Made by a program: the position numbers and the translations under genes. The notes under the pieces were generated by a model. The model was not told where the DNA came from. It was given only the letters and a program-made list of their open reading frames with translations, and made no database searches. Below are positions 34,747-53,032 of a stretch of 64,000 nt of DNA, piece after piece. This DNA comes from Temperatibacter marinus (lineage in GTDB: Bacteria > Pseudomonadota > Alphaproteobacteria > Sphingomonadales > Kordiimonadaceae), in NCBI RefSeq assembly GCF_031598375.1, contig NZ_CP123872.1:1717001-1781000 (forward strand). The letters run 5' to 3'. Every line of letters starts with the position of its first letter. Within the stretch, counting starts at the first letter, position 1.

Positions 34747-36213
34747 ATGTTATTTATTGATGGGCATTGGATCGAAGGGCGCGGGATCGATATGAGCTCC
34801 CATAGCCCGCATAACGGTACGCAACTTTGGACTGGAGCGTCAGCAACTGACAATCAGGTGAATGCAGCTTTAGAGGCGGCGACTGAAGCCTTTCAAGTCT
34901 GGTCATTCCAAAGCTTTGAAGCACGTTTAGAGATAGCTCGTGCTTATGCGGGTATCTTGAAAGAGAATAAAGATAAGTTGACAGAACTGATCTCTATGGA
35001 AGCTGGAAAGACCGGTTGGGATGCCGCTGGAGAAGCTACAGCTATGATCAACAAGGTTGAGATCTCTGTCACGGCCTATCAGGAAAGAACAGGATCGAAG
35101 GAAGCCGTGAACGGAACGCTTAGATCCAAACTTTCACATCGCCCTTATGGTGTCATGGCTGTTTTTGGTCCCTATAATTTTCCTGGCCATTTACCAAATG
35201 GGCATATTGTTCCTGCCTTGTTGGCAGGCAATACAATTGTATTTAAACCGAGTGAACTGACACCTGCTGTTGCAGAGTTCATGGTGAGCTGTTGGGAGAA
35301 AGCTGGGCTGCCTCACGGTGTTCTAAACCTTGTGCATGGCGGCAAGGAAACAGGTGTTGCCCTGACGTCTAGCCCTCTCATCCAAGGGGTTCTTTTCACG
35401 GGAAGTGCTCAAACAGGTATTGCGATTAATAAATCGCTCGCCGGACGTCCTGAAGTAATTTCAGCATTAGAGATGGGGGGTAATAATCCCTTGATCGTGC
35501 ACAAAGTCGATGATCTGGAAGCCGCAGCAACGCTGACAATATTATCGGCCTATATTTCAAGTGGTCAGCGGTGTACATGTGCTCGGCGTTTGATTGTACC
35601 TGAAGGCCCTGAAGGTGATGCTTTCATTGCGACACTCGCTAATATGATCGATCGGATTCATGTTGATCAAGTTACGAGTGATGAGACGGCTTTTATGGGG
35701 CCTGTCATTACCAAAGAAGCCGCAGATCATGTTCTTAAAGAACAGGAGCGGTTGATTGCAAAGGGGGGCGCCGTTATTAGGAAGTCTGAGCGCCTCTCAG
35801 CTCTTGGTGACGCCTTCCTTTCACCTGGACTTATTGATGTATCTGTTGCAACGGATGTCCCAGATGAAGAGATTTTTGGGCCGCTGCTTCAACTGACACG
35901 CGTTTCGGATTTTGATGAAGCTATTAAAACTGCCAATCGGACAAAATACGGACTCGCATCAGGATTAATTTCTGATGACAGAGATCTTTACGAGTATTTT
36001 TACCCACGCGCTCAGGCTGGTATTGTGAATTGGAACCAGCAATTAACTGGAGCAGCATCTACAGCTCCCTTCGGTGGATTAGGCCATAGCGGAAATCATC
36101 GTCCAAGTGCTTATTATGCCGCAGATTACTGTGCATACGGCGTTGCTACAATTGAACAGGCAGAGGGTAAAGTGGTGGTCGCCTCAGCACCCTTGGGGTT
36201 GAAGGATAAGTAA
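34747..36213 (+). CDS. astD: N-succinylglutamate 5-semialdehyde dehydrogenase
   Basis: NAD-dependent oxidation of succinylglutamate semialdehyde to succinylglutamate, fourth step of the AST pathway. It is 488 residues with the aldehyde dehydrogenase fold: FGPYNFPGHLPNGHIVPALL (AstD-typical), FKPSELTP, VLFTGSAQTG (cofactor loop), ALEMGGNNPLIV (general-base Glu) and SSGQRCTCARRL (catalytic Cys), then DEEIFGPLLQL. An AAGGA ribosome site precedes the ATG. Its stop codon abuts the astB start with no spacer. Confidence 0.96.
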   Translation: MLFIDGHWIEGRGIDMSSHSPHNGTQLWTGASATDNQVNAALEAATEAFQVWSFQSFEARLEIARAYAGILKENKDKLTELISMEAGKTGWDAAGEATAMINKVEISVTAYQERTGSKEAVNGTLRSKLSHRPYGVMAVFGPYNFPGHLPNGHIVPALLAGNTIVFKPSELTPAVAEFMVSCWEKAGLPHGVLNLVHGGKETGVALTSSPLIQGVLFTGSAQTGIAINKSLAGRPEVISALEMGGNNPLIVHKVDDLEAAATLTILSAYISSGQRCTCARRLIVPEGPEGDAFIATLANMIDRIHVDQVTSDETAFMGPVITKEAADHVLKEQERLIAKGGAVIRKSERLSALGDAFLSPGLIDVSVATDVPDEEIFGPLLQLTRVSDFDEAIKTANRTKYGLASGLISDDRDLYEYFYPRAQAGIVNWNQQLTGAASTAPFGGLGHSGNHRPSAYYAADYCAYGVATIEQAEGKVVVASAPLGLKDK

Positions 36214-46766: not shown

Positions 46767-47366
46767 ATGAAAAAAATTGTCATTACAGCTGTTCTAACGT
46801 CCGTTCTGATGGGGTGTGCACCTACACCACCAAAATCTGTCACCAATAGTTGTGTCATGCTCGACGATAAATCAAGTTGGTATAAGTCTTTAAAAAAAGT
46901 ACGAAAAGAATATGGAACACCAATCCATGTCCTACTTGCCATGATGCGTCAGGAATCATCCTTTAAACATAATGCTAAAACTCCTAGAAAATATATCCTA
47001 GGCTTTATCCCCTGGGGTCGGCAATCTACGGCCTATGGATATGCTCAAGTAAAAGACATGACTTGGGATTGGTATCAACAGCGTACAGGAAGAAAGAGTG
47101 CGGATCGTGATGATTTTTACGATGCTGTACGATTTATGGGATGGTATTCGACTGTAAGTCAGCGAACCTTAGGTATTTCTAAATGGGACGCTTATAATCA
47201 GTATTTAGCCTACCATGAAGGCCATGGGGGATGGAAAAGAAAATCATTTAATAAAAAACCATGGCTTCTTAAAGTCGCACGTAAAGTTGAAGGCTATGCC
47301 CAGACATATGCTGTACAACTTAAGGGGTGTGAAGATGACTTGGATAGTGGGTGGTGGCCATTCTAA
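46767..47366 (+). CDS. Lytic transglycosylase-like lipoprotein
   Basis: 199-residue SLT/lysozyme-fold protein. Lipoprotein signal MKKIVITAVLTSVLMGCAPT with Cys17. The core is VLLAMMRQESSFKHNAK (Glu in the ESSF motif as expected for the catalytic acid), TAYGYAQVKDMTWDWYQ, YNQYLAYHEGHGGWK. Likely cleaves or binds peptidoglycan glycan strands at the envelope. It is a short version without accessory domains. Terminator at 47373-47398 follows. Confidence 0.85.
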   Translation: MKKIVITAVLTSVLMGCAPTPPKSVTNSCVMLDDKSSWYKSLKKVRKEYGTPIHVLLAMMRQESSFKHNAKTPRKYILGFIPWGRQSTAYGYAQVKDMTWDWYQQRTGRKSADRDDFYDAVRFMGWYSTVSQRTLGISKWDAYNQYLAYHEGHGGWKRKSFNKKPWLLKVARKVEGYAQTYAVQLKGCEDDLDSGWWPF

Positions 47367-47372
47367 GGAAAA

Positions 47373-47398
47373 AAAAGGACTGATGAATCAGCCCTTTT
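47373..47398. terminator. Bidirectional terminator between transglycosylase and M56 gene
   Basis: Stem AAAAGG-CTGAT (47373-47384) / ATCAG-CCTTTT (47387-47398) with one mismatch and a 2-base loop. T run is stronger on the minus strand (complement of about 47369-47376), so it mainly ends the BlaI/M56 operon. Confidence 0.8.
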
Positions 47399-47410: not shown

Positions 47411-49942
47411 TCAAGTTTTCTGACCCTTTCGTCGTTCCAAAATTTTCTTAACTTTTTTTGCTTCATAGCTGCTGTTAACTTTCTCAGCTGCACGAGAAAG
47501 CGCTTGGTTGATTTTGTCATTCCGAGGGGCTTTGGAGGCGATCGCGGCCAGTGTCCGAGACAATTCAGAATCGCTCTTCATTTGATCAAGAGCTTCAATC
47601 ATTAGAAGCCAGGATGTTGATGTCATGCCCCCAGAGTTAATGATGGCCATACACGCTTGTCTGAATTCATAATCACTATTGAGAGTTTCTAAGAGGACGA
47701 TTGCCTTTTCAGTTGCGCGGTCAGATTTATCTTTACGGTCGGCAATCGCCTCGATGATATGCCGCATTTCGTAATCGCTGCTGACTTTATCAATGGTCAT
47801 ATCTAGAAGGCGAAGTAAGTTTTTATCGCTAATTTTTTTCTGGTTTAGTGCGCTCATGAAAAGCTGTCTCATTTCATAGTCACTTTCAATGGTTTCCATC
47901 AGTTCAATGAGAATGGCAAAGCTATTATCATCTAGTGCCTTCTTTGTGACGAGCGGCGTTATCATCTGACGCATCTCATAGTCGCTTTCAATTTTCTTAG
48001 CGGCTTTTAGGACATCTGGTAAACTGCCTTTTGGAAGGTCATAGTTGGTTAAAAGCATGCCGAAAGTTTGACGCATTTCGTAATCGCTCTCAATTTTCGA
48101 TAAGACTTTAATGAGACCTCTTACGTCCTTTGATTTTAACTTTCTCGCCTCGAGAAGGGCTCTGGTATATTTTCTCAAAGCATAGTCAGTTATTTGTTCC
48201 ATTTCAGCTAAGACAGCTTTAACACCGCCTTTTTTAAGGTAATTTTGGACACGGTTTTCAGCGTTTAACCCTGTTCTACGCAGCACCTTTGTTAGGGTTT
48301 CTTTTAACCACTCTTTATCCTCATTTGTCATGAGGCGTTTATCGCCATCATAACGGAACTGGGTAAGGATTTCCCCGTCTTTCATGGTGAATTTAATGCT
48401 TCTTTCAAGGTCGTCATCTTCCTCGATTAACCGAAAATATCCGTCTTCAGCTACTTTTGTTATTGTGCTATCATCAGTGGCAATTTCAAACTGTCCATCC
48501 CATTTGACCCGTATTTCATAGTCATCTTCTGACCAATTCAAGTTGCCTCTTGGGTGCTTTTTATCACCGCTCATGCTCATACTGACACTGGCTCTGTCAG
48601 AGAGGGTAGATTTTTGGGCTTTTGGTGCTTTTGGCGCTTCTGGTGCTTTTGGCGCTTCTGGTGCTTTTTGCGCTTCTGGTGCTTTTGGTGCTTTTGGTGC
48701 TTTTGGCGCTTCTGGTGATTTTGGCGCTTTTGGTGCTTTTGGTTCTTTTGGTGCTTTTGGGGCGCTCTGTCCATCCTCAGTTTGGCCCGAATGGGTGACT
48801 ACTGATTTTGGCTCAATCTTTGCCGCTAAGCCGAAGGTTGGCATTGACATGGATGTGGCGATTAGACCTGCAACCATGCTGATTTTAATGAAAGAGGATG
48901 TGTTTTTAAAGTCGCTATCGTTCGCAGCAAGCAGTCTTTCCACTCTTGCTTTTAGTTTTGATTTGTCTTTAGCCATTGCTAGACCCCACTGTGGTTGTTT
49001 TCTATTTGTTATTTTTTTGGCACAGGTAAAAAGGGCTTCAGCAACAGATTTCGGGTTGTCACTATGGCTGGAGGCCCACTCGTCGGCTGCTAATTCCGCG
49101 AGATCTGCCAGCCGCTTTTGTGCCAATGAAAAAAGCGGTTGCAGGAAGAAAAGCCTTGATAAGGCGTGTAAGATGAGAAGGATAATTGGATCATTACGCT
49201 TTAAATGGGCAACTTCATGCCCAATGAGACCCTTAAGTTCATGTGTGCTGATTGCCTCTTCTAAAGCCCAAGCGGGGAGAACAATCTCACCAGAAGGGAG
49301 GCAAAGCGGACTATCAATAGAGGAAGTCCATGTAAGATAGGGCGTGCGTTTAATATTTGCTCGCTCACATATTGTAAATAAAATTGCAAAAGCGCGGTGC
49401 TCTGGTCTGACACGTTCGCGTTTGCCTAGAGATTTGATCGCTAAGCCATACGTCAAGATCAAACTTAAGAGGCCAAGGCCCGCAAGCACAGAGGGAAGAA
49501 CTAAAAACCTAGGGAAAGCAATTGTAGATTTCGAGGATGCAGAGCCAGATGATAAAGGGTCTTGGTTGCCTTGAGGTGAGAGGGTGCTATCGCGCTCGGC
49601 CTGTTCTTTTATTCTTAAAATATCTGGCCCTGCATCTAGAGTGAAATCCTTTGGGATATTGAGTTTTTGTGCCGTGAAGTCGTCTTGAGGGAGGATCCAT
49701 TCGCCTATTTTAGAACTGGCAGATGTTGTTAGGGTTACTTCCTTTGCATATTCACTGCTTATTGGGATTAAAAGTGTGAAAGAGGCTATAATGGCTGCTT
49801 TCCAAGCGGTGTCTGCTAAGTCACGATTTTTTAACAGGCCCACTTTTTCGATCACTAGAACCAGGCAGAAAATGAGAGTGCTGCCTCCTAAAAACCGAGC
49901 AAGAAGAAGAAAAAGTTCCACAGAGTCGAAAGGATAGGTCAT
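47411..49942 (-). CDS. BlaR1-type M56 membrane protease with alpha-solenoid-like C-terminus
   Basis: 843 residues. The N-terminal half is a BlaR1/MecR1-like M56 protease: membrane helices (about 7-31, 45-62, 143-168, 352-370) with GHEVAHLKR (zinc His242, Glu243, His246) and AELAADEWA. Then comes a low-complexity Ala-Pro-Lys linker (about 395-443), a small beta-rich segment (about 460-540), and eight repeats of about 34 residues carrying an S-D-Y-E-x-R core, with the Tyr (or equivalent) at 587, 621, 655, 689, 724, 758, 792, 826. No penicillin-binding sensor domain. It overlaps the BlaI-type gene by four bases, so it is likely the sensor/antirepressor for it; the signal is unknown. Confidence 0.9.
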   Translation of the reverse strand: MTYPFDSVELFLLLARFLGGSTLIFCLVLVIEKVGLLKNRDLADTAWKAAIIASFTLLIPISSEYAKEVTLTTSASSKIGEWILPQDDFTAQKLNIPKDFTLDAGPDILRIKEQAERDSTLSPQGNQDPLSSGSASSKSTIAFPRFLVLPSVLAGLGLLSLILTYGLAIKSLGKRERVRPEHRAFAILFTICERANIKRTPYLTWTSSIDSPLCLPSGEIVLPAWALEEAISTHELKGLIGHEVAHLKRNDPIILLILHALSRLFFLQPLFSLAQKRLADLAELAADEWASSHSDNPKSVAEALFTCAKKITNRKQPQWGLAMAKDKSKLKARVERLLAANDSDFKNTSSFIKISMVAGLIATSMSMPTFGLAAKIEPKSVVTHSGQTEDGQSAPKAPKEPKAPKAPKSPEAPKAPKAPKAPEAQKAPEAPKAPEAPKAPKAQKSTLSDRASVSMSMSGDKKHPRGNLNWSEDDYEIRVKWDGQFEIATDDSTITKVAEDGYFRLIEEDDDLERSIKFTMKDGEILTQFRYDGDKRLMTNEDKEWLKETLTKVLRRTGLNAENRVQNYLKKGGVKAVLAEMEQITDYALRKYTRALLEARKLKSKDVRGLIKVLSKIESDYEMRQTFGMLLTNYDLPKGSLPDVLKAAKKIESDYEMRQMITPLVTKKALDDNSFAILIELMETIESDYEMRQLFMSALNQKKISDKNLLRLLDMTIDKVSSDYEMRHIIEAIADRKDKSDRATEKAIVLLETLNSDYEFRQACMAIINSGGMTSTSWLLMIEALDQMKSDSELSRTLAAIASKAPRNDKINQALSRAAEKVNSSYEAKKVKKILERRKGQKT
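48614..48763. repeat. Nine-base tandem repeat encoding an Ala-Pro-Lys linker
   Basis: About 150 bases of imperfect nine-base units (plus strand TTTTGGTGC and TCTGGTGCT-type units) encode the APK/APE linker of the M56 protein. Such in-frame tracts can change length by slippage. The plus-strand complement is also open and reads Phe-Gly-Ala, but that is a mirror of the repeat, not a gene. Confidence 0.85.
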
Positions 49943-50313
49943 TTGGGATCCCCTTTCTTCAGCATATCTTCAATGTCGGAGAGATCTTCTTTGCCAATTT
50001 CCCCTTCCTGAAGAAGGTGTGCAAGAAGGGCCTTTGGGTCCCCTTTAAATAAATTCGTAACTAAGCCTGATACCATTGATTTTTTCACATCACTCTGTGC
50101 GATTAGAGGCGTGAAGATTTTTTCTCTTCCAAGGGTCTCAGAAGAGAGGATGTTTTTCTTCTCAAGTCGCGAGAGGACTGTTCCGACAGTCGTCAAAGCC
50201 CAGTTTTCATGACAAAGGGCCTGTTGGACATCCCTTGTGCTTTTTGGGCCGAGTTCCCATAGAACTTGCATAATGGCGTATTGTTGATCACTTAATTTAA
50301 CAGATCCTGACAT
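49939..50313 (-). CDS. BlaI/MecI/CopY-family repressor
   Basis: 124-residue winged-helix repressor: KLSDQQYAIMQVLWELGPKS, STRDVQQAL, the recognition/wing segment LTTVGTVLSRLEKKNILSSE and the C-terminal dimer helices. In the family, an M56 protease partner leads to cleavage of the repressor. First gene of the operon, overlapping the M56 gene (ATGA). AAGGAAG ribosome site. Two matching operators and a promoter lie directly upstream. Confidence 0.95.
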   Translation of the reverse strand: MSGSVKLSDQQYAIMQVLWELGPKSTRDVQQALCHENWALTTVGTVLSRLEKKNILSSETLGREKIFTPLIAQSDVKKSMVSGLVTNLFKGDPKALLAHLLQEGEIGKEDLSDIEDMLKKGDPK

Positions 50314-50336: not shown

Positions 50337-50383
50337 ACTACATGTGTAGTACAAAGTAATACTACAAGTGTAGTTAAAGTCAA
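50337..50383 (-). promoter_or_regulatory. Promoter with two BlaI-type operators
   Basis: Minus-strand promoter TTGACT (50383-50378), 16-base spacer, TATTAC (50361-50356). Two operators of form ACTACA-N2-TGTAGT lie at 50337-50350 and 50361-50374, 24 bases apart. The upstream one sits inside the promoter spacer, the other covers the start region. This is the classic TACA/TGTA pattern of BlaI/MecI sites and supports autoregulation. Confidence 0.85.
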
Positions 50384-50767
50384 GTTTCTAATTTTTTTGA
50401 CCTTGCATTAGTTAGTTTGGGTGCGGTTATTCCGAGGTAAGAGGGCTATAATACTTGGACCTTGACAGTGGAGGTATCAAGGTAAGTCAGGGGCTCTGGA
50501 TAACTCCATCGAGCATTAGTTTTTATTTCTTTTTATGCCAGAAGTTCTATGACTAACTAATCTACCTGTGGCTTTTGTGTAACCCTTGTAGGTTCTTTTG
50601 CCTTTCTACGAGAGCAAATCTCTAATTTTCCTTGTTTTTTTAAGATGTTGCATTAAGTTTTTTGATGAAGCCACTCACGAGGGGGAGAGGCCCAACATAG
50701 TATATACACTCATGTTTTTACACCACAGATGTGTGAGAACTATTATGTCTATTTAGGAGGAGCTAAA
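50384..50767. other. Intergenic region upstream of TonB-dependent receptor
   Basis: 384 bases without a recognised gene. It holds a perfect 10-bp inverted repeat, ATTAGTTAGT (50408-50417) / ACTAACTAAT (50552-50561), 134 bases apart, and the start-proximal AGGAGG at about 50756-50761 for the receptor. The long leader may contain a 5' regulatory region, but I cannot identify a known riboswitch. Confidence 0.4.
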
Positions 50768-53032
50768 ATGAGGGATACGATAAAAGAGACGATTGCGAAA
50801 GCATCTGTATCGACAGCTATGCTTTTAACTTTGGCTGTTACTGGCGCTCATGGTGCAATCGCACAGGACAGTGACGAAAAGAAAAAAGGATCTGCAGCCA
50901 GCATTCTGGAAGAAATTGAAGTTTATGGAACAAAGAGATCATCTGCAGAGAAAGCGCAAGATGTTGCAGCTCAAATCTCAGCATATGGATCTGATAAACT
51001 TGAAGCGATGAAAGTGGTACGCCTGACAGACTTAAGTATGTCTACGCCTTCAGTAACACTTGATGATATTGGGACCGTTCCAGGGACTGCGAATTACTCA
51101 ATCCGTGGCATGGGGGTTAACAGCTCTATCCCCACAGTCGAGCCCTCAGTTGCTCTTTTTGTGAACGGCGCTTATGTGGGTGCAGGTCAAGGCGCAATCC
51201 TGTCCATGGTTGATATGGAATCGGTTGAAATCCATAAAGGACCTCAAGGAGTTCTTTTCGGTCGGAACGTGACGGGTGGGGCGCTACTCCTTAGAACAGC
51301 GCGTCCAACAGATGATTTCTCTGTTAAAGGGAGTTTTGGCCTTGAAACAGGGTTGATGAAAACAACTCGTTTTGCTGTGTCCGGCGCTTTGTCAGATAGC
51401 TTGTCAGCGCGCATGGCTTTTTACATGAATGATGATAATGGGTATTTTAATAATGATACTCTAGGTTTTGATATAGGCCGTGAATTTACATGGGTGATGC
51501 GTCCAACAATCACATTTAAACCCAGTGATGACTTTGACCTTACTGTCATCTATGAGCATGGTGAAACAGAAGGCGACGGCCCAGTAGATCAATTCGCTCA
51601 GGGCGGCAATACACGAGAGCCGTTTGATACGCTTACGACACGCCAGGATTTTGCAGGTAAGATTGATCTTAGATGGGATCAACTGACAGTCGAAGCCAAC
51701 ATGGCAATCGGCGAAGGGACACTGACAAACATATTCTCATACCGTGAAGTGGATCAAGATTCCCGTAGTGACATTGATGGATCTCACTTGTGGCTGTTTC
51801 ACTCTACATCAGGTAATGACTCGGATATTCTTTCTAATGAGCTTCGCTATAACACAAGGGTGAATGATACCTGGGAAGTCACAGCGGGTGTCTACTACTC
51901 AACAAGTGACTTAGACTATGATGAAGGTCGATCTTTGTTCCAGGATGCTTCCCTGAATTTCTTTGCTAGAATTGGCGCTATTCCTCGGGTTGAATACGGC
52001 GGTGGCGGTGTTCAGTCTGCCAAAAACTGGGGTATCTTTGTTAATAACTATGTTGATGTGAACGAAGATCTGACATTACAATTCGGTGGACGCTACAGTT
52101 GGAATGAAAAAGAAGGTGTTCTCAATCCTTTGACGACCTGTACCTTTGATTACACATGTTTCGTAGACATTGATTTGACATTCAAGTCAGACAATTTCTC
52201 CCCTAAAATTGGCTTGGACTATGACCTGTCTGATACAGCCAAAGTCTATACTCATTGGTCTCGGAGCTACCGAGCGGGTGGGTTCAATTTCCGGATGCCT
52301 CTTTCGCTGGTCCAGTCTAAACTCGCAGCAGGGCAGGATCTCGCCTTTGATGATGAGCGTGTTGACAATTTTGAGGTTGGATTTAAGTCTGACCTAATGG
52401 ATCGTAAGCTTCGCCTGAACGGCGCAATCTATGTTAATTACCTCAGTGACATGCAGCGGGAAATTAACCTTCCAGATCCAAACGGCGGTGTTCTTCAAGA
52501 TATCGAGAATACAGGGGATGCCCGCATCCTTGGTCTTGAATTTGATGCCATCGCTTTGGTTGGTGAGAATACAGCGCTGAATTTTGGTATCGGTTACATA
52601 GACGGGAAGTATACGGATATTATTTATGATCTAACAGGTGACGGCGTTGTAACAGATGCTGACCTTGATCTTGATATCCCACGTCTTGCAAAATGGACTC
52701 TGACAGCTGGAATTACACATGACGTTAATGTTGCAGATTATGGTGTTTTGACTTTGCGCGGGGAATATTCCTATCGCTCTAAGTCGGCTTATACAGACAA
52801 TAATGCGGGGCTCTTTAATTCATATTCAATGATGAATGCGAGCGTTGATTTCGCTCCGAATGACGCAAACTGGAAAGTGTCTCTCTATGCCAAGAACTTG
52901 ACAGACGAATCTGTTTTAGGCGGCATGACAGTGCTACCATTTGCAATTCCAGCCTTGGGACTTGATTACCCATACTTTGCTCCAATGGGCAAAGGACGCC
53001 GCTATGGTGCAGAAATCAGCTACTCCTTCTAA
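50768..53032 (+). CDS. TonB-dependent outer membrane receptor
   Basis: 754-residue outer-membrane beta-barrel for TonB-energised uptake. Signal peptide (about 1-33), TonB-box-like IEEIEVYGTKR region, plug domain (about 45-165; NYSIRGMGVNSSIPTVEPSV, VEIHKGPQGVLFGRNVTGGA), then a barrel of about 22 strands ending in GRRYGAEISYSF with the expected C-terminal Phe. The start ATG at 50768 is fixed by AGGAGG seven bases upstream; an earlier in-frame ATG at 50729 lies before that site. Substrate unknown; iron or aromatic/complex organic compounds are both possible. Confidence 0.93.
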   Translation: MRDTIKETIAKASVSTAMLLTLAVTGAHGAIAQDSDEKKKGSAASILEEIEVYGTKRSSAEKAQDVAAQISAYGSDKLEAMKVVRLTDLSMSTPSVTLDDIGTVPGTANYSIRGMGVNSSIPTVEPSVALFVNGAYVGAGQGAILSMVDMESVEIHKGPQGVLFGRNVTGGALLLRTARPTDDFSVKGSFGLETGLMKTTRFAVSGALSDSLSARMAFYMNDDNGYFNNDTLGFDIGREFTWVMRPTITFKPSDDFDLTVIYEHGETEGDGPVDQFAQGGNTREPFDTLTTRQDFAGKIDLRWDQLTVEANMAIGEGTLTNIFSYREVDQDSRSDIDGSHLWLFHSTSGNDSDILSNELRYNTRVNDTWEVTAGVYYSTSDLDYDEGRSLFQDASLNFFARIGAIPRVEYGGGGVQSAKNWGIFVNNYVDVNEDLTLQFGGRYSWNEKEGVLNPLTTCTFDYTCFVDIDLTFKSDNFSPKIGLDYDLSDTAKVYTHWSRSYRAGGFNFRMPLSLVQSKLAAGQDLAFDDERVDNFEVGFKSDLMDRKLRLNGAIYVNYLSDMQREINLPDPNGGVLQDIENTGDARILGLEFDAIALVGENTALNFGIGYIDGKYTDIIYDLTGDGVVTDADLDLDIPRLAKWTLTAGITHDVNVADYGVLTLRGEYSYRSKSAYTDNNAGLFNSYSMMNASVDFAPNDANWKVSLYAKNLTDESVLGGMTVLPFAIPALGLDYPYFAPMGKGRRYGAEISYSF

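Follow-up and report, generated by a model that had tools for sequence, protein, structure and literature searches.

A BlaI–M56 protease gene pair of Temperatibacter marinus with a predicted alpha-solenoid in the sensor position

The BlaR1/MecR1 receptors of Staphylococcus and Bacillus and their repressors BlaI/MecI (PF05569 and PF03965) serve as the paradigm of signals relayed by cutting a repressor directly; BlaR1 itself is regarded as a drug sensor. In the model outlined in PMC9834060, PMC7593790 and PMC3305447, arrival of a signal at the outer domain of the receptor leads the protease to cut BlaI. A BlaR1 homologue of Mycobacterium tuberculosis is described in PMC9834060 as having no equivalent sensor domain; by that account, M56 receptors lacking a penicillin sensor are therefore already known. 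The locus considered here is a blaI gene followed by an M56 protease gene, found in a 64,000-nucleotide stretch of the Temperatibacter marinus genome (contig NZ_CP123872.1, positions 1,717,001 to 1,781,000; this whole stretch is called the window). It rather probably encodes a BlaR1-type proteolytic signalling pair whose drug sensor has been swapped for a periplasmic solenoid and which derepresses its own operon on an envelope signal.

Like the BlaR1/MecR1 systems, this pair combines a membrane M56 protease carrying HExxH...E, an overlapping repressor gene and palindromic operators in the repressor promoter. Unlike them, it has a beta domain and a solenoid of SDYE repeats instead of the class D beta-lactamase-like sensor, and no beta-lactamase or penicillin-binding protein target was found in the T. 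marinus genome with the operator at up to one mismatch. The C-terminal penicillin-binding or class D beta-lactamase-like sensor that strictly characterizes BlaR1/MecR1 is missing and the pair is not BlaR1 in the strict sense. It shares the lack of a penicillin sensor with the M. tuberculosis homologue but differs from it, as described in PMC9834060, by its specific large solenoid. The architecture was not found described in the open-licence literature, by title or abstract start; by that measure, the specific solenoid sensor and its operator family are what is new.

The repressor, the protease and the predicted sensor

The locus comprises the following features (coordinates in the window).
50361–50374, no strand: BlaI-type operator 1, ACTACA-N2-TGTAGT, 3 bp after a -35-like TTGACT (50383–50378, minus strand); pattern scan
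50337–50350, no strand: BlaI-type operator 2, 24 bp from operator 1 and 23 bp before the blaI start codon; pattern scan
49939–50313, minus strand: blaI, 124-residue winged-helix repressor of the Penicillinase_R family; list of open reading frames (ORFs), Pfam, aligns with S. aureus MecI/BlaI structures
47411–49942, minus strand: M56 receptor-protease gene, 843 residues; ORF list, Pfam
49523–49942, minus strand: N-terminal hydrophobic segments (residues 13–31 and 43–63) and loop equivalent to the BlaR1 extracellular loop; hydropathy scan, topology by analogy with BlaR1
48935–49465, minus strand: M56 protease domain, residues 160–336, with HEVAH at 242–246 and the candidate third zinc ligand E283; Pfam, alignment
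48821–48883, minus strand: last hydrophobic segment, residues 354–374, followed by the presumed periplasmic part; hydropathy scan
48605–48769, minus strand: Ala-Pro-Lys-rich linker, residues about 392–446; sequence
48323–48577, minus strand: small beta domain with eight predicted strands, residues about 456–535; AlphaFold2 model
47414–48325, minus strand: predicted alpha-solenoid, residues about 540–843, eight repeats of 34–35 residues with SDYE-x-R cores; AlphaFold2 model, repeat alignment, sequence
47373–47398, minus strand: terminator-like hairpin 3' of the M56 gene, 11 pairs followed by a T-rich run; consensus match (5 found for a shuffle mean of 4.0)

The start of the M56 gene overlaps the stop of blaI by 4 bp and the operon appears to consist of these two genes. 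BlaI matches Penicillinase_R (E 1.5e-28) and the adjoining gene product matches Peptidase_M56 (E 7.2e-19, residues 160–336), the two families (PF03965 with PF05569) that make up a BlaI–M56 regulatory pair. The overlapping repressor gene and the BlaR1/MecR1-type zinc protease that had been put forward in the initial annotation are thereby both recovered, the zinc motif GHEVAHLKR beginning at residue 241. The BlaR1 models of NCBIfam matched the M56 protein weakly, well under their cut-offs, and no further than the protease part. Among solved structures, S. aureus BlaR1 (8exs/8exp) was matched over residues 190–349 (E 2e-4), HEVAH falling on the zinc helix (His201/His205) and E283 on Glu242, given in PMC9834060 as the third zinc ligand of BlaR1. 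Since HEVAH and E283 align with the BlaR1 zinc ligands, the protease is probably active, and the gluzincin motif HExxH...E is intact. A cytoplasmic protease and an outer C-terminal sensor can be inferred by analogy with BlaR1, hydropathy being the only basis for this topology in the M56 protein itself.

Past the protease, the likeness to BlaR1 ends. Pfam detected nothing credible in the C-terminal half of the M56 protein, a profile of the C-terminal sequence matched nothing better than E 0.59 in the PDB, and no transpeptidase or beta-lactamase domain was found by comparison with Pfam, NCBIfam and PDB sequences. These searches, which revealed no penicillin-binding or other known ligand domain, leave standing the earlier claim that the protein has no beta-lactam-binding domain. 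The Ala-Pro-Lys linker and the small beta-rich segment that had been noticed in the letters are found at residues about 392–446 and 456–535, respectively. The repeat motifs begin at residues 585, 619, 653, 687, 722, 756, 790 and 824, so that their third (Tyr) positions (587, 621, 655, 689, 724, 758, 792 and 826, 34–35 residues apart) agree exactly with the key positions annotated before. The last two repeats (SDSE and SSYE) are degenerate as had been stated, and so is the first (TDYA). The six strict SD[YFS]E motifs form a single chain with a spacing of 33–36 residues, and not even a chain of two motifs appeared in 20,000 shuffles of residues 561–843.

The signature is shared by many proteins. 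Over 311 repeats from 51 proteins (each with at least four motifs, those with fewer being dropped; the set includes some duplicates and close relatives), the consensus is I-x-S-D-[YF]-E-x-R-x-x-L, with S in 91%, D in 96%, Y or F in 94%, E in 93% and R in 73% of the repeats. HExxH is present in 50 of these 51 proteins. The exception is a stand-alone 421-residue protein of another alphaproteobacterium (L084:1354-2619, also L233), which combines a hydrophobic N-terminal segment with the beta domain and with eight repeats of the SDYE type; it has no M56 part and no adjoining BlaI. The beta/solenoid unit therefore also exists outside receptors.

Folding of the full M56 protein from its single sequence was poor (mean predicted local distance difference test score, pLDDT, of 46), the repeats from about residue 640 on being already modelled as helix pairs (pLDDT about 67–88). 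With 22 aligned sequences, AlphaFold2 produced a high-confidence model of residues 456–843 (pLDDT 92, predicted template modelling score 0.83), in which eight strands are followed by a continuous helical solenoid and every motif helix starts directly after the motif Ser, in the manner of a helix N-cap. The HEAT-like solenoid that had been proposed is thus what is predicted, and no disorder. The nearest solved folds (Foldseek, VIA-align) are all solenoids, namely VPS35, importins, the PP2A scaffold, Puf proteins and designed armadillo proteins; the best match has a Z of 14.0 with a root-mean-square deviation of 5.9 over 312 residues and 9% identity, and a Z near 14 for a repeat protein may reflect the common arrangement alone. 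With HEAT and ARM solenoids (VPS35, importins, the PP2A scaffold, designed armadillo) the predicted model has in common two helices per 34–35 residues and a superhelix, but its SDYE-x-R signature is its own and the fold matches are generic; no HEAT/ARM model occurred at E up to 0.1 among the matches listed (25 of 28 Pfam families, 22 members). The model supports an alpha-solenoid, with no particular function implied. The search for a known fold that would bring a function with it was abandoned, as only generic solenoids were returned.

Distribution, operators and candidate targets

Several searches show how widely the receptor occurs. In a whole-protein search of 98 relatives, 42 matched somewhere, and the SDYE C-terminus was found in 21 of the 29 searched genomes of the family of T. 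marinus (Kordiimonas and relatives), counting the matches that reach the C-terminal region. A scan of named contigs gave 21 loci, including Kordiimonas gwangyangensis, K. aquimaris, K. sediminis, K. laminariae, K. marina and Eilatimonas milleporae, together with one Lysobacterales and one unplaced pseudomonadotal assembly. The receptor is present in 6 of the 398 genomes of a phylum sample and in 29 of the 299 genomes of a gammaproteobacterial order (that of genome G473), inferred to be the Lysobacterales. BlaI lies directly upstream in 22 of these 29 gammaproteobacterial loci (counted without a thirtieth, the second match of one genome); in the other seven, the DNA upstream is too short, or BlaI or M56 went unmatched. 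The anticipated recurrence of the repeat domain in M56 proteins with an adjoining BlaI is thus seen in two proteobacterial classes. Two of 385 genomes of a class sample matched, one being the T. marinus genome and the other spurious: this weak match (G756) sits in a permease-like ORF and was dropped. No relative was matched on plasmids, none of the 21 stretches of viral contigs fitting the pattern is a relative, and Rfam gave no match. SDYE-like repeats may also occur in other phyla.

As in described BlaI–M56 pairs, the promoter of the repressor carries palindromic sites, here the predicted twin operators. The promoter scan listed no sigma-70 promoter at blaI, the TTGACT having been spotted by eye. 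Of 24 loci examined, 23 have two operator-like sites (up to two mismatches) ahead of the pair; in the remaining one, the gene was split by the ORF call. In the gammaproteobacterial set, which included the locus of the stand-alone protein, a site with at most one mismatch lies upstream of the receptor in 18 of the 22 loci with a called gene; the four misses are the stand-alone protein, a contig edge, a site with two mismatches and a locus with no site. As the operator stands upstream of the receptors in both sets, its spelling is conserved between the two classes along with the receptor type. The promoters of paralogous BlaI genes (L188–L191, L195–L197) carry twin TTTACA-N2-TGTAAA or ATTACA-N2-TGTAAT sites or variants, as if each BlaI–M56 pair had its own operator spelling. 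Because these other paralogs have different operators, the ACTACA sites can most likely be assigned to the SDYE system.

The check suggested earlier, which genes carry ACTACA-N2-TGTAGT, has a simple answer in the T. marinus genome: at up to one mismatch, the pattern occurs at the blaI promoter alone (2 sites). Given this restriction, the pair looks self-regulated, as far as operator matches can tell. At two mismatches, there are 54 sites besides the blaI pair, one of them in the window at 35230; 49 were inspected (4 of the 54 lie outside the inspected set), of which 43 are inside ORFs of at least 60 residues and none of the remainder precedes a PF00144-like gene, to go by a visual check of the initial residues. 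No distal target emerged from these 49 sites, and a wider regulon in this genome was discarded.

The relatives gave another candidate. In the 29 family genomes, the relaxed pattern WCTACA-N2-TGTAGW matches 49 times, with 34 matches at blaI promoters (assigned from positions); the reversed control pattern matches 24 times. The 15 other sites are about background in number, but four of them precede a PF00144 gene by 22–54 bp; G008 and G011 share one such orthologous gene, G016 and G025 a second. Within 100 bp of a PF00144 gene, 0.008 sites would be expected (548 PF00144 matches), so that P is about 1e-10 for four cases and 3e-5 for two independent ones, the family having been picked after the link was seen. 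A third ortholog, in G014, has a site upstream with one mismatch, which brings to five the Kordiimonas genomes with the operator just upstream of PF00144 genes, and the gene of G025 has two sites 25 bp apart, as at blaI. For the PF00144 proteins, the top-scoring models are those of AmpH and class C beta-lactamases, with scores well short of the cut-offs; a beta-lactamase family is the sort of target to be expected of a BlaI.

Most of the other extra sites were set aside as apparent chance matches. Those of G007, G028, G018 and G000 fall within genes, as does one of the two G005 sites; the second falls within the start of an ORF and has another gene 192 bp away. In G020, which has no BlaI match at all, the site precedes a Rid-family gene, and in G012 it is 199 bp before a RepB-like ORF. 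The G018 site (L095, C9) is a perfect operator-like sequence within an RTX repeat gene, where it is probably fortuitous. In G027, the site overlaps the beginning of a gene for a propeller-repeat protein, and in G009 and G002, whose M56 protein has another C-terminus, the site is upstream of DUF547 genes (L090, L091).

Proposed mechanism and competing explanations

Taken as a whole, the following model can be drawn. In the resting state, BlaI would repress its own two-gene operon via the twin operators. The M56 protein would lie in the inner membrane with its zinc protease facing the cytoplasm, its beta domain and SDYE solenoid being held in the periplasm, past the last membrane segment and the long linker. 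A periplasmic partner, most likely a protein, a peptide or a cell-wall fragment, would engage the beta/solenoid unit; by analogy with BlaR1, the engaged receptor would switch on the protease, BlaI would be cut and the operon derepressed. In several related Kordiimonas, the same operator may also release a PF00144 serine hydrolase related to AmpH or class C beta-lactamases. Topology, BlaI cleavage, a periplasmic ligand and an input from envelope stress are thus inferred, and the solenoid probably reports on the cell envelope. The likeliest input is a periplasmic protein, peptide or murein fragment, given that peptides and proteins are frequent ligands of solenoids and that relatives revealed no targets other than AmpH/class C-like enzymes.

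Several data weigh against this proposal. No target beyond the operon itself was found in the T. marinus genome, so that the envelope role leans on relatives, and the ligand of the receptor is itself deduced. The cleavage site of S. aureus BlaI aligns with His99-Leu100 of T. marinus BlaI, which thus has His-Leu where the staphylococcal protein is cut between Asn and Phe. The PF00144 link, besides having been chosen after the fact, concerns two gene groups in five genomes, two of which are close relatives; moreover, the group of G016, G014 and G025 faces a divergent pseudouridine-synthase-like gene (by eye) and the operator could therefore serve that gene. Finally, in the model the most conserved residues of the motif, S and E, stand at the place expected of a helix-capping box, a structural role, which weakens the earlier suggestion that the repeat surface binds a protein or polymer.

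This last point is at the heart of the main rival, a purely structural solenoid that would form a dimer or clamp the periplasmic loop of the receptor and thereby keep the protease off, the signal entering elsewhere (membrane state, another protease or phosphorylation). S-x-x-E is a helix-capping box. The S, D and E of SDYE are the most conserved residues and the predicted helices start after S, which fits such a box and not a binding site. A precedent for the clamp exists in the basal state of BlaR1, in which, according to PMC9834060, the extracellular loop sits bound within the sensor domain. However, D (96%), Y/F (94%) and R (73%) are also kept over the 311 repeats, beyond what capping needs, and the M56-free version shows that the unit is useful outside a receptor, so that a structural role alone seems fairly unlikely. 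The same rows of Asp and Glu, in register across the repeats, could be thought to bind Ca2+ or a transition metal, all the more as CopY-type relatives of BlaI act in metal control and the T. marinus repressor matches the CopY/TcrY model (E 2.9e-19, below cut-off); but the E is placed as a helix-cap residue, the repeats have no His/Cys pattern and neither at the operators nor among the shared neighbours did a metal transporter turn up, and a cation receptor is considered highly improbable. An ordinary receptor binding beta-lactams directly would agree with the presence of BlaI, of M56 and, in relatives, of PF00144 targets. It was already disfavoured and hardly deserves any credence, since neither a penicillin-binding nor a class D beta-lactamase domain is detected by sequence (Pfam, NCBIfam, PDB) and AlphaFold2 models a solenoid instead; direct beta-lactam sensing was ruled out on these grounds.

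Other M56 sensors and the surroundings of the pair

The T. marinus genome has a second BlaI–M56 pair (L059:5491-7493, C1 at about 1218490–1220492). Its M56 protein (L059:5491-7104) likewise adjoins BlaI and has a repeat solenoid in the sensor position, but it ends in ankyrin repeats (Ank_2, E 1.4e-24) and not SDYE repeats, and its promoter has a different candidate operator, ACTAAT-N2-ATTAGT and not ACTACA-N2-TGTAGT. As a second pair of the same genome carries ankyrin repeats instead, M56 sensors appear interchangeable. A third kind of C-terminus, with about three long repeats (by eye), was noticed on an M56 protein beside BlaI in G009 (L054:5309-8464).

It can tentatively be proposed, at somewhat less than an even chance, that M56 proteases form a large class of modular membrane receptors. 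In place of the penicillin sensor they would carry one of several interchangeable repeat solenoids (SDYE, ankyrin or another type) by which a periplasmic protein, a peptide or a piece of murein is read, and every receptor would be served by a BlaI and an operator spelling of its own. The SDYE branch would, on this view, be a hitherto undescribed pathway of envelope stress; in some species it would induce AmpH/class C-like hydrolases although the receptor itself binds no beta-lactam. The engine known from BlaR1 would then be coupled in Gram-negative bacteria to a different, conserved sensor with its own operator code, and the input of M56 receptors devoid of a penicillin sensor becomes testable. 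One prediction is that Kordiimonas has inducible serine hydrolases whose controlling receptor is probably unable to detect the drug itself.

The neighbouring genes give few clues. In Kordiimonas, the receptor is accompanied by genes for an M19 dipeptidase, MAPEG, hydantoinase, ketoacyl-ACP-synthase-III-like, TerB/DnaJ and GGDEF proteins; a function drawn from them was rejected, as this is synteny shared genus-wide and missing beside the T. marinus pair. The gammaproteobacterial loci (26, crude ORF calling having lost the receptor gene in 4) have few recurring neighbours, between close relatives only. In the window, a TonB-dependent receptor gene (50729–53032) is divergent from blaI with the operators in between, and was dismissed as a BlaI target because this neighbour is not conserved. 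On the other side, the M56 gene converges with a lytic transglycosylase gene (46767–47366; lipoprotein-like start; SLT_4, E 9.1e-76), the terminator-like hairpin lying between the two.

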